In this document: positions 56,768 through 60,520 of the stretch, piece by piece
Layout of the letters: each line of letters opens with the position of its first letter
Position numbering within the stretch: position 1 is the stretch's first letter
Origin: Sulfurimonas gotlandica GD1
GTDB lineage: Bacteria > Campylobacterota > Campylobacteria > Campylobacterales > Sulfurimonadaceae
Length of the DNA stretch: 64,000 nt
Direction of reading: 5' to 3'
Assembly (NCBI RefSeq): GCF_000242915.1
Contig: NZ_AFRZ01000001.1
Location: 620,001 to 684,000 of the forward strand
Notes under the pieces: generated by a model
What the model saw: only the letters and a program-made list of their open reading frames with translations
The model's database searches: none
Told to the model about the DNA's origin: nothing
Position numbers and translations under genes: made by a program

Positions 56768-56956
56768 TTAGCTTTTTGCAAGTAGATTTTTCTTCATAAA
56801 TATGTAGAAAAACGCTAATACGGGAACAAAAATAATACCAATAACCCAAAAAACTTTTGCTTTTTTATCGTTGAATTCATTAGTTAGTATAGAACCGATA
56901 GAGTAAATCCATAGACCTAAAAACAGGACAAGGATTAAGATTGTAATATTGCTCAT
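56768..56956 (-). CDS. Small membrane protein with PLDc_N-like domain
   Basis: The start is ATG 56956, because AAGGAGG lies five or six bases upstream; the in-frame ATG at 56971 lies before that site. The 62-residue product has two membrane helices (ITILILVLFLGLWIYSIGSI and VFWVIGIIFVPVLAFFYIFM) joined by NEFNDKKAKV. This fits the PLDc_N family found alone or at the N-terminus of cardiolipin synthases. Function unknown. Confidence 0.75.
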   Translation of the reverse strand: MSNITILILVLFLGLWIYSIGSILTNEFNDKKAKVFWVIGIIFVPVLAFFYIFMKKNLLAKS

Positions 56957-57030
56957 AACATCCTCCTTCATATCCTATACTATATCATTTGTAATGTTAA
57001 AACTATAAAAAGAAATAGAACTAATATAAT

Positions 57031-59637
57031 CTATTTTATTAGAATAAATGCAGACCAAAAGTATGGGTTTGAGTAAGCCTCAAATACTTTTGTCTCATTA
57101 CTCTTTTTTTGTAAACCTCTTTGAGTATTTTCACCAGCTATACTGTTTGTGAGTAGTTTCTTTTTTGCAAAATATAAAGATTTTGAATTTGAATTTCCTT
57201 TAGCAATATTTTCATAAAATAATTTCATCAATTGCTCTGTAGCGAGTGAATCAACAGGCCATAAAGAAGCTATTATCTCTTTACTTCCTGCTACTTTAAA
57301 AGCTCTAGCTATTCCAGTAGCTCCCTCCCCTCTAAAGTATTCACCACTTCCTGAGTTACAAGCTGACAAAACAACAAGTTTAGCATTGAGTTTTAGTTTT
57401 GAAATTTCAGTTGCACTAAGCAGTGAATCTTCTTTCTCTTCTTTTGCTAAGACTAAAGCTGGTTCATTCATATCTGGTATTTCACCACCTAATATTCCAT
57501 GTGTAGCAAAATGTATGTAATCATAATCTTCAAGAGGTATTGACTTTATGATACTCTCTTTTGCATCTGTGCCTAAAAGTAGTTTAGATGAATTCATATT
57601 CTTTGATATAGTTTCAACTTCTCTTCTTGTTTCAGGAAGTTTTTGAAAATAGCCAGATATGTCTGCCGAGCGCTTTTTTGAAAAAGTTATATCAGAAAGT
57701 TTATCTACTCCACGTTCATCATACATAGGATCAGCCACAGCGAGTAGTTTTAACTCTTTAGATTTTTTATTATCTATTTGAGAAATATTCAGAGTTGTTA
57801 AATAATCAACACTATAATTTTCAAATAACATCAGCTCATCCAATGGATAAATATCTAGCGGCAGAATAGAAAGAACTCCATCACTCAGTAGATGAATATT
57901 TTTAATACCTTTAAACTTTGCTATTGGGTTTATGTACTCTCTTGCTATATTTAAAAGCTCTACTTTATTGTAAATTTGTTTTTCTACTAAATCATTTTTT
58001 ATAGCATATAATTTTTTATCTAACTCTTTACTCTTTGGTATAACAGAAGCAAAAATTTCATCTTTTGATATTCCTGCTATGAGAATATCTGTCCCAACGT
58101 CAAATATGATGTAGAGTAAATCTTCTTTACTCATAGATGATTGAAGTTCTTGAAGATTTTGCTCTTTTATATCTGCAGTTGCTTTTAAGTCTTTTAGTTG
58201 ACGAGAACTTAAAAGATTTAAAGCAACCAAAAAATTATCAAATGATTTTTTAGTTTTTTCTTTTTCATATATTTTTGCTCTTGAGCGAATTAATCCTAAG
58301 TAAGCATCTTTTGCGTAGCCTCTGAAGTAGCTTTTTCTTAGATTTATTGGCAGAGATGCTCTTATCTTTTCATTTGAGATAATGAGTTCATCATAAACAT
58401 CACAAGCTTGAGTATAATTAGACTCTTTTTCTAAGATAATTGCTTTTAGAGTTAGCAGTTCTCTTTTAGTTTTTATAACTCCGTCTAGGTATTGATACTC
58501 TGAGGGTAATTTTTTATAGTGTTCTACTAAAAGTTTAAATCTACTCTCTGCTTCAACCATTTGTTCTGTAGCTTTGTCTATCTCTCCTGAATGATAATTT
58601 ATATCTGCTGAGTATAGAGAACTTAGGTAATTGAATTTTAGAGGGATGCGTTGGAGAACAACATTAGAAGTATTACCTAATGCAAAATCAAAATTTTCGC
58701 GTAATTCTTTAATATAAATACTATTCTTTTTTGATGAAGGATCTGTTGAACCTAAAGCATTACTTTGAAGAGTATTTTGTAATTCAAGAAAAGCTATATT
58801 TGCTCTTTTCTTATCATTTGTAATAGCAAAATATTTTGCATATACAAATAATGTTTGACTATTTGTATAATAATTTTCACCAGATATATTATTTTGATTA
58901 TATAATTCAAAATAGCCCTCGGCAGCCCTTCTTCCTACTATATTTGAAAATGGTGTAATATATTTGTACCCATAATACTTCATTAAAAAATCAAAATTTA
59001 TTGCTTGTATATTTTCATCATTTATATTGAAATCTAGAAGAGATAATTTTAAATTATATTTTTGATATTCATAAAATACTAATAAACTATAAATATCATT
59101 CTTTTGAATATTATCTATGTCCACAATAAAGTATTCATTCATTATTTTTTCTATATTTGCTAATGTAATATTAGCTAAGTCAACTAATCCTAAGTCAAGA
59201 TAAATATCAATAAGTTTAAAGGATGTATCTAATTCTATTTCCATAAAATCATATTTTTGAGACTCTAAAATTAATTTTTTATAAATTTCTATTGATTTAT
59301 AAACTTGCTTTGTTTGAACATAATAATTTACGGTTACATCTGATAATTGCTTGTAAATAAATACATCAGCATATAAGCGTGCACCTCCATTAACAAAAAC
59401 ATTCCATAGGTCAGTACCTTTATTAAAGAGTATTTCAATTTTAGTATTAGCTTCTTTTGATGTTTTTTTATCAGTATGCAATATGTCAATAACAACTTGT
59501 TCTATCTCTAAATATGCTTTTGAATAATTGGCTTTTTTTTTGATATCTAAAGAAGATTCTAGTCCAAATGCCATTACGCTAGATGTTAAAACATATATAA
59601 AAAATAAAATATTTACAATATACAGCTTACCTTTCAT
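57031..59637 (-). CDS. Secreted TPR-CHAT protease-like protein
   Basis: An 868-residue exported protein. A signal peptide (MKGKLYIVNILFFIYVLTSSVMA) is followed by about 450 helical residues with TPR-like units (YHSGEIDKATEQMVEAESRF, YTQACDVYDELI). The CHAT domain spans about 560-868 and carries the clan CD dyad His713 (IHFATHGIL) and Cys760 (VVLSACNSGSG), followed by GEGATGIARAF and IASLWPVDS. Active-site residues are intact, so it may be a periplasmic or surface protease triggered through the TPRs. It overlaps the lipoprotein gene by 11 bases. Substrate unknown. AT content looks higher than in its neighbours. Confidence 0.88.
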   Translation of the reverse strand: MKGKLYIVNILFFIYVLTSSVMAFGLESSLDIKKKANYSKAYLEIEQVVIDILHTDKKTSKEANTKIEILFNKGTDLWNVFVNGGARLYADVFIYKQLSDVTVNYYVQTKQVYKSIEIYKKLILESQKYDFMEIELDTSFKLIDIYLDLGLVDLANITLANIEKIMNEYFIVDIDNIQKNDIYSLLVFYEYQKYNLKLSLLDFNINDENIQAINFDFLMKYYGYKYITPFSNIVGRRAAEGYFELYNQNNISGENYYTNSQTLFVYAKYFAITNDKKRANIAFLELQNTLQSNALGSTDPSSKKNSIYIKELRENFDFALGNTSNVVLQRIPLKFNYLSSLYSADINYHSGEIDKATEQMVEAESRFKLLVEHYKKLPSEYQYLDGVIKTKRELLTLKAIILEKESNYTQACDVYDELIISNEKIRASLPINLRKSYFRGYAKDAYLGLIRSRAKIYEKEKTKKSFDNFLVALNLLSSRQLKDLKATADIKEQNLQELQSSMSKEDLLYIIFDVGTDILIAGISKDEIFASVIPKSKELDKKLYAIKNDLVEKQIYNKVELLNIAREYINPIAKFKGIKNIHLLSDGVLSILPLDIYPLDELMLFENYSVDYLTTLNISQIDNKKSKELKLLAVADPMYDERGVDKLSDITFSKKRSADISGYFQKLPETRREVETISKNMNSSKLLLGTDAKESIIKSIPLEDYDYIHFATHGILGGEIPDMNEPALVLAKEEKEDSLLSATEISKLKLNAKLVVLSACNSGSGEYFRGEGATGIARAFKVAGSKEIIASLWPVDSLATEQLMKLFYENIAKGNSNSKSLYFAKKKLLTNSIAGENTQRGLQKKSNETKVFEAYSNPYFWSAFILIK

Positions 59638-60361
59638 GAATTATCTTTACAACTGTCACTAAAATATATGACTCTCTAATATATACCCATATCCCTAAAC
59701 TATTATACCAATCAGATTTATTAGTTTTCCACATATAAGTGTACATATCACTAACTCCTGTATACTGAGTATTTGCAAATGGCTTTCCCCAACCTTCATT
59801 AATTACAAATAAGGAATCAAAATCTTTAACAATGGATTTATATAATTCATTTAATGATTCCCCATCATTTGGAGTATAGTAGACTGCCATATTTGTCCCT
59901 TCTTTTAATTCTGCAAAAGAAAGATCCATTGGATTAGTACTATTTAAATAAACTTGGAAAGGGTTGTTATTGCTTTTTTCTTTTAAGACAATTGATCTTT
60001 TCAAAGAATAGTGCCCTTTTTTAGCATCTTTAATTCCTCGTATCTTCTCTGGCTTAGAAATTGATGAGATTTTGTTAAATTCATTTTTTGTAATTAAAAA
60101 TTCTTCATCAGCAATTCTTTTAGCTACTGCATCTTTTTTTGGATCAACTATCACAAATGGTAAAGTGCTTATTGTTCCATCAGCATATTGTTCTACTAAC
60201 TTGTGAAATATTTTTGCTCTAGGCGAATTCACATATTTATATAATAACTTAATATCTGGTGAAGTATAATTTTTTTTTGGCTTAGGTCTAGGTTGTTCGC
60301 ATCCAATCATAAAGACCAATACAACAACTAAAACACTTACCCTTAAAATACTAGTTCTCAT
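59627..60361 (-). CDS. Lipoprotein partner of the CHAT protein
   Basis: About 244 residues with a lipobox (LVFMIGC). The remainder is soluble and basic, with no family I recognise; YKYVNSPRAKIFHKLVEQYA and WGKPFANTQYTG are the more structured parts. I chose ATG 60361 because AAGGA lies five bases upstream; an adjacent ATG at 60364 would add one residue. The 3' end overlaps the CHAT gene, so the pair is co-translated. It may be the anchor, inhibitor or substrate of the CHAT protein. Confidence 0.7.
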   Translation of the reverse strand: MRTSILRVSVLVVVLVFMIGCEQPRPKPKKNYTSPDIKLLYKYVNSPRAKIFHKLVEQYADGTISTLPFVIVDPKKDAVAKRIADEEFLITKNEFNKISSISKPEKIRGIKDAKKGHYSLKRSIVLKEKSNNNPFQVYLNSTNPMDLSFAELKEGTNMAVYYTPNDGESLNELYKSIVKDFDSLFVINEGWGKPFANTQYTGVSDMYTYMWKTNKSDWYNSLGIWVYIRESYILVTVVKIIHER

Positions 60362-60376
60362 CATAATCCTTCGTAT

Positions 60377-60382: not shown

Positions 60383-60408
60383 TATATTTAACTAAGAAAT
60401 TTATTATT

Positions 60409-60454
60409 CACTAAGTCTAATCTTTTTGTCTTTATATAAGGCTTAGACTTAGTG
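60409..60454. promoter_or_regulatory. 12-base perfect inverted repeat upstream of the lipoprotein-CHAT genes
   Basis: CACTAAGTCTAA (60409-60420) and TTAGACTTAGTG (60443-60454) are exact complements, 22 bases apart. The arm centres are 34 bases, or about three helical turns, apart. The near arm lies about 27 bases upstream of the proposed -10. It could be an operator of the CHAT pair or a hairpin ending secF transcription; no T run follows. Confidence 0.5.
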
Positions 60455-60494
60455 CATACTTTAAGTATCAATATATGAGAGTATTTGAGTAGAG

Positions 60495-60520
60495 CTTACC
60501 CACACCAAAGTATGGGTAAG
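60495..60520. terminator. Hairpin just after secF
   Basis: CTTACCCA (60495-60502) and TGGGTAAG (60513-60520) form an 8-base stem with a 10-base loop, 20 bases downstream of the secF stop on the minus strand. No T tract follows, so factor-dependent termination or transcript protection is more likely than intrinsic termination. Confidence 0.4.

Follow-up and report, generated by a model that had tools for sequence, protein, structure and literature searches.

The CHAT protease considered here that has a published mechanism, Csx29 of Craspase, is cytoplasmic; it is allosterically gated, and a single cut in Csx30 frees an ECF sigma factor. Conflict systems make use of cytoplasmic CHAT proteases (PMC10028731). 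DdvA of Myxococcus xanthus, whose solved structure (PDB 8rot, 8rw5) carries a CHAT domain, acts as anti-sigma factor on DdvS, an ECF factor (PMC4374960). In prokaryotic metacaspases, helices at the N-terminus have been noted as possible signal peptides (PMC3501461). Here we describe a lipoprotein–CHAT gene pair in the window, a 64,000-nucleotide stretch of the Sulfurimonas gotlandica GD1 genome, and compare it with these systems.

Genes of the pair and their surroundings

The pair occupies 57031–60364 on the reverse strand and consists of an ORF for a 245-residue orphan lipoprotein (59627–60364) and an ORF for an 868-residue TPR-like/CHAT protein that is predicted to be exported (57031–59637). 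The two ORFs overlap by 11 nt, the start codon of the CHAT gene lying inside the 3′ end of the lipoprotein gene. An earlier note on this DNA had claimed an exported TPR-CHAT protein with intact His713 and Cys760 and a coupled lipoprotein, and the overlapping ORFs, the signals, the PF12770 match and the catalytic dyad bear this out. The gene order in the window is leuS, DUF6394, a small gene for a 67-aa membrane protein, the CHAT/lipoprotein pair, secF, secD and yajC, which agrees with the order given in that note except for the extra 67-aa gene. This gene (56768–56971, reverse strand) codes for a PLDc_N-like membrane protein according to a Pfam search and is a neighbour that lies outside the pair.

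The AT-richness that had been remarked on is evident. Of the 56 CDS of the window (mean GC 0.340, sd 0.027), the CHAT gene ranks last in both GC content (0.279) and GC3 and is the most AT-rich long one, and the lipoprotein gene has the third lowest GC; a codon-likelihood measure tracks this AT bias and gives nothing independent of the low GC. Inverted repeats also lie next to the pair, as had been stated. Upstream of the lipoprotein gene, two 21-nt arms (60405–60425 and 60438–60458) are 86% complementary, and a hairpin behind secF (CTTACCCA...TGGGTAAG, 60495–60520) is the probable transcription end of secDF. Since the inverted repeat at 60405–60458 is present in a single copy genome-wide, its reading as the ends of a mobile element was dropped, and the inverted repeats beside the pair look like transcription stops or spacers rather than transposon ends. 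The pair shows neither a target-site duplication nor a transposase, recombinase or flanking repeat, and a transposon or phage origin was rejected.

Domain organisation of the two proteins

The CHAT protein starts with a predicted Sec-type signal peptide without a lipobox (residues 1–23, MKGKLYIVNILFFIYVLTSSVMA followed by F, 59569–59637) and, as far as a crude count shows, lacks other membrane segments. Its export is predicted by a crude rule that is also positive for 27 of 171 other genes; by this rule the protein has the export signal whose absence the earlier note had named as an argument against its proposal. The CHAT protease domain (residues 566–867, 57037–57942) matches PF12770 with an E-value of 1.2e-50 and 173 bits against a curated cut-off of 24. 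The predicted catalytic residues, His713 in the FATHG motif (57499–57501) and Cys760 in the LSACNSG motif (57358–57360), are invariant in 12 aligned CHAT sequences, and the match above the cut-off together with this dyad places the protein, as far as its sequence can tell, in the CHAT family. An AlphaFold model built from the alignment of the 12 CHAT sequences has a pLDDT of about 85–90 in the CHAT domain and displays antiparallel helix pairs over residues 62–482 (58192–59454), a region predicted to form an alpha-helical TPR-like solenoid, with low confidence before about residue 390. In a Foldseek search, the first and second ranks are taken by TPR-CHAT structures of Craspase (Csx29), many more of which follow lower down, the third and fourth by DdvA, and separase and gingipain appear further down the list, RgpB being a weaker structural match. 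Since the model displays helix pairs and Foldseek matches TPR-CHAT structures, the label TPR-like is a fair description of the modelled fold. The TPR repeats of the earlier description are putative; Pfam gives no TPR match in this protein even at E ≤ 1. The pair has no hit among the PADLOC anti-phage models, and its membership in a defence system of that collection was rejected.

The lipoprotein has a signal peptide (residues 1–21), the lipobox MIGC with Cys22 and a Pro/Lys-rich tether. Residues 1–40 (60245–60364, reverse strand), which comprise the signal, the lipobox and the tether, are homologous by sequence comparison to the leader of a WD40-caspase lipoprotein encoded at 711 kb in the same genome (49% identity, E 1e-7). 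The match has a z of 13 against shuffles, compared with z below 1 for unrelated lipoproteins of the genome, and the match to the leader of a second WD40-type caspase lipoprotein (91 kb) is poorer. Most simply, the leader is derived from, or common with, those of the caspase lipoproteins, so that the lipoprotein would be sent to the same place. No homologue was found in the other 199 family genomes searched, and plasmids, viral contigs, the PDB and 200 family plus 249 phylum genomes gave no relatives beyond leader-length or marginal matches. A weak RickCE_N match (E 0.004) lies below the Pfam cut-off, and this assignment was discarded; the structure model, with a pLDDT of 37, is unusable.

The secF–leuS site in related genomes

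In 22 of the 29 congeners compared at the site, secF is followed directly by DUF6394–leuS with a gap of less than 500 bp, and a promoter-like stretch before DUF6394 is common to the window genome and these empty-site congeners. The pair therefore interrupts a conserved order, as the earlier note had proposed by comparison with Helicobacter pylori (leuS-HP1548-secF-secD-yajC, given there as having no genes between HP1548 and secF), and its presence at the same site in most relatives, which would have spoken against that proposal, is not observed. The other seven congeners have different content at the site or a contig end there. G127 has a transposase, G195 several ORFs, some of them IS-like, G149 a gene of the diguanylate cyclase kind, G223 a chloride-channel-type gene where the order also seems rearranged, and G201 an unrelated ORF. 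In G194 the contig ends after the 67-aa gene, and in the closest relative by SecF (G217, 92%) the same 67-aa gene stands with a different lipoprotein/exported gene set. The G217 set (L046:7384–11489) codes for a DUF2846 lipoprotein, a 621-aa exported protein, a 234-aa lipoprotein and a DUF4352-like protein.

With nothing inserted in 22 of the congeners and other inserts in most of the remaining seven, the secF–leuS gap is an insertion hotspot. Since, in addition, the lipoprotein is found in no other genome searched, the pair is, on this sequence comparison, judged to be recently acquired cargo at that hotspot. The CHAT protein of the window has only distant relatives in the other 199 family genomes, and CHAT domains occur in 8 of the 135 genomes of the genus. 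The 67-aa PLDc_N-like gene shifts within the secF–leuS gap of relatives independently of the pair. Since it occurs near secF without the pair in both G217, where it occupies the site, and G194, where it adjoins secF and no pair is seen before the contig ends, it was rejected as a third member.

Caspase-fold proteases encoded in the same genome

The genome encodes eleven caspase-fold proteases, two of the CHAT and nine of the Peptidase C14 type. They carry TPR, WD40, ankyrin or cyclophilin parts, and some have lipoprotein partners, one of which is a patatin phospholipase. The catalytic His and Cys are kept in all eleven. Ten have a signal peptide or lipobox by the crude rule, an enrichment (p 4e-7) over the other genes from the same stretches, 27 of 171 of which pass it, and in the eleventh (MKLLLLLFFFFGDLFAYSD) the signal peptide is plain by eye; all eleven are apparently exported to the cell envelope. 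The C14 proteins comprise six of WD40 type (about 950–1160 aa), four of which are paralogues with 41–51% identity, an ankyrin-C14 lipoprotein, a C14-cyclophilin fusion and a 443-aa C14 protein. WD40 repeats are Pfam-confirmed only in the 711-kb protein, the other five being assigned by similarity to this protein over much of their length.

The second CHAT unit consists of overlapping genes for a 166-aa lipoprotein and a lipoprotein TPR-CHAT between lspA and tig, a site that is empty in all 13 congeners examined. This unit and the nine C14 caspases with predicted export tell against the view that the pair is a singular system. Other exported neighbours in tight pairs with caspase-fold genes are an LPP20/FlgO/DUF4384-like protein, a Sel1 protein and a phospholipase lipoprotein of the patatin type, the gene for the last lying 19 bp downstream of that for a WD40-type caspase (L103:2858–7546, about 2.80 Mb). 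These two proteins are a candidate pair of a protease and a membrane-active effector.

Some of the loci are of interest in their own right. The exported C14-cyclophilin protein (L098:4742–6070, about 1.898 Mb) is an unusual fusion, in which the C14 domain (E 2.5e-41) is joined to a prolyl isomerase of cyclophilin type at the C-terminus (E 1e-47). At an intergenic site flanked by a NIF3-like gene and a gene for a 197-aa protein, this genome has the 443-aa C14 gene (L099:4558–5889), while G127 has a 1004-aa WD40-type caspase at the same site (L107:3143–6157), the caspases being swapped. An island-like stretch behind murD at about 0.70–0.71 Mb (L011:4487–13493) contains genes for a tyrosine integrase, a Fic protein, the WD40-caspase lipoprotein and the LPP20/FlgO/DUF4384-like exported protein.

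CHAT proteins in other genomes

Most of the complete CHAT genes found in other Campylobacterota look exported, and some, e.g. that of G388, appear to be cytoplasmic. The company of these genes varies. In G168, a CHAT gene is accompanied by a CsgG-DUF4384 lipoprotein gene and a FecR gene; in G393, by genes for CHASE2, a WD40 protein and a second CHAT; and in G418, genes for a two-partner-secretion exoprotein and a ShlB-type transporter lie immediately before an exported CHAT gene. A Leptolyngbya genome has an exported TPR-CHAT gene after filamentous-haemagglutinin-like and transporter-like genes. A wider contig scan for CHAT gave a single distant cyanobacterial match, and no locus like the pair was found in viral contigs. 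A two-partner-secretion-linked CHAT was considered for the window and rejected, there being no such exoprotein or ShlB gene near the pair.

Since most complete CHAT proteins of Campylobacterota look exported and have varied neighbours, export of CHAT proteins is a recurrent theme and not peculiar to the window locus. The earlier note had founded the novelty of the pair on the statement that CHAT proteases are mostly cytoplasmic, which does not agree with this distribution or with the transmembrane DdvA. Since envelope-located CHAT proteins are not new, the novelty claim is too strong as worded.

The G168 genes are part of a large cluster (L049:2700–16900) that encodes two near-identical 96-aa proteins, the CsgG-DUF4384 lipoprotein, a CHAT lipoprotein, a FecR protein, a TonB-type receptor and a FecR-TbpB-like protein, and this exported-gene cluster is possibly a surface-assembly locus. 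The CHAT protein of G127 (L047:8689–11211) begins with a leader like that of a lipoprotein but with Tyr in place of Cys in the lipobox (LSGYGG), so that the anchor has apparently been lost while the dyad is kept.

Possible functions of the pair

We favour, at a probability of roughly 0.45, the reading that the pair is a recently acquired two-gene operon for a lipoprotein-gated sensor-protease that makes a specific cut in the envelope. The lipoprotein would use the leader common with the resident caspase lipoproteins for export and for anchoring, probably in the outer membrane, and the CHAT protein would be exported by Sec. The TPR-like solenoid may bind the lipoprotein or an envelope ligand, the periplasmic signal most likely arriving through the co-encoded lipoprotein, and the CHAT cysteine protease would be kept inactive until the contact of the solenoid changes. 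The active protease would then make a specific cut in an envelope protein and release either a signal, for example by inactivation of an anti-sigma factor or a FecR-type regulator, or a membrane-damaging effector. The pair would be part of a set of caspase-fold proteases across the genome that are exported and carry different repeat sensors. Sensing by the solenoid, direct contact between the two proteins, gating, a specific substrate and the outcome of its cleavage are proposed by analogy with Csx29/Csx30 of Craspase and with DdvA.

What agrees with a lipoprotein-gated sensor-protease is partly seen directly and partly well predicted, namely the gene overlap, the signals, the dyad, the CHAT fold, the exported caspase set and the mobility at the site, with low GC in the pair and empty sites in congeners; the Csx29 and DdvA precedents, the lipoprotein or FecR pairings of the second CHAT unit and of G168, the caspase–patatin pair and the shared leader point the same way. 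Against it count the orphan status of the lipoprotein and its unusable model, the low-confidence helical N-terminus of the CHAT protein, the crudeness of the signal rule and the finding that no sigma or anti-sigma gene and no obvious substrate gene lies next to the pair. The earlier note had gone further and suggested an envelope-stress or contact-triggered module. Contact triggering finds no support; for envelope stress there are only the DdvA analogy and the FecR and CHASE2 neighbours in relatives.

The exported CHAT genes that follow exoprotein and transporter genes in G418 and Leptolyngbya, together with the weaker structural match to the gingipain RgpB, would also suit a protease that trims adhesins or other exported proteins and is held at the outer membrane by the lipoprotein, acting in maturation or assembly rather than as a switch for stress or death. 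This is unlikely for the window, where no exoprotein or transporter gene adjoins the pair, and two-partner systems are not usual neighbours of the caspase-fold genes of this genome. The insertion hotspot, the foreign composition, the patatin lipoprotein beside one caspase locus, the integrase and Fic genes near another and the part played by cytoplasmic CHAT proteases in conflict systems (PMC10028731) are compatible with a defence or cell-death module, in which an exported caspase, triggered by phage or damage, would cleave and activate a membrane-damaging protein. The lack of PADLOC matches and of similar loci in the viral contigs searched, and of a pore-former, nuclease or recombinase gene adjoining the pair, makes this improbable too.

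Two further explanations have low probabilities. If the pair were laterally acquired cargo in decay, without a present function, its occurrence in one genome only, at a hotspot and with low GC, would be accounted for, but both ORFs and the dyad are intact, the overlap is kept and the other ten caspase-fold genes are intact as well, which makes decay very unlikely. A toxin–immunity pair, with the CHAT protein as a released toxin against neighbours and the lipoprotein as a shield of the producer's periplasm, would fit overlapping genes with envelope-directed products and an orphan, AT-rich lipoprotein gene. It is the least probable explanation: no secretion-system or release signal was found, most of the remaining exported caspases have no partner of this kind, and the lipoprotein gene comes first, opposite to most effector–immunity pairs.

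A broader and rather doubtful idea is that of an extracytoplasmic caspase network, in which the window pair is a split version with lipid anchor and protease on separate chains. From genes scattered among housekeeping genes, the eleven exported proteases would jointly survey the envelope and trigger signalling or cell death; most have a repeat-type sensor of their own, and some are partnered by lipoproteins, of which one is a phospholipase. To our knowledge, caspase-fold proteases of the cell envelope are almost unstudied. The presence of eleven intact and apparently exported ones in a single genome suggests a role for caspase-type proteolysis in the envelope of Gram-negative bacteria as well. 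The sequences frame the questions of which envelope protein is cut, whether the lipoprotein gates the protease and whether the neighbouring caspase activates the patatin lipoprotein.

Comparison with known systems

The window protein resembles Csx29 in its His/Cys dyad and in the TPR-like solenoid predicted before its CHAT domain. However, Csx29 operates with Cas7-11 and a crRNA, whereas the window protein is predicted to be exported and CRISPR genes are absent nearby; with secF and DUF6394–leuS as neighbours and no Cas7-11/gRAMP gene, membership in Craspase (type III-E CRISPR) was rejected. DdvA is likewise envelope-located with a CHAT domain and is the best CHAT match by sequence among solved structures, a weak one (E 0.1–0.27). 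Unlike the transmembrane anti-sigma factor DdvA, the window protein combines its signal peptide and crude count of no further membrane segment with a lipoprotein partner, and it was not assigned to the DdvA type, which is marked by a transmembrane helix with a cytoplasmic anti-sigma part. Exported WD40-metacaspases and orthocaspases resemble the pair in their caspase fold, repeat sensor and N-terminal signal, and one exported WD40-caspase of the C14 type has the leader of the window lipoprotein in common; however, they belong to C14 and not to CHAT, have the sensor and the protease in one chain and lack a small orphan lipoprotein. The G168 unit of the same genus also combines an exported CHAT gene with an upstream lipoprotein gene, but that lipoprotein is of the CsgG/DUF4384 type, unrelated to the window one, and the CHAT protein is itself a lipoprotein. 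The locus is of interest for its split arrangement, in which an orphan lipoprotein goes with a separate CHAT protein, and the genome, a small one, for its unexpected set of eleven apparently exported caspase-fold proteases; envelope-located CHAT as such was already known from DdvA, and the eleven-protease set is new here.
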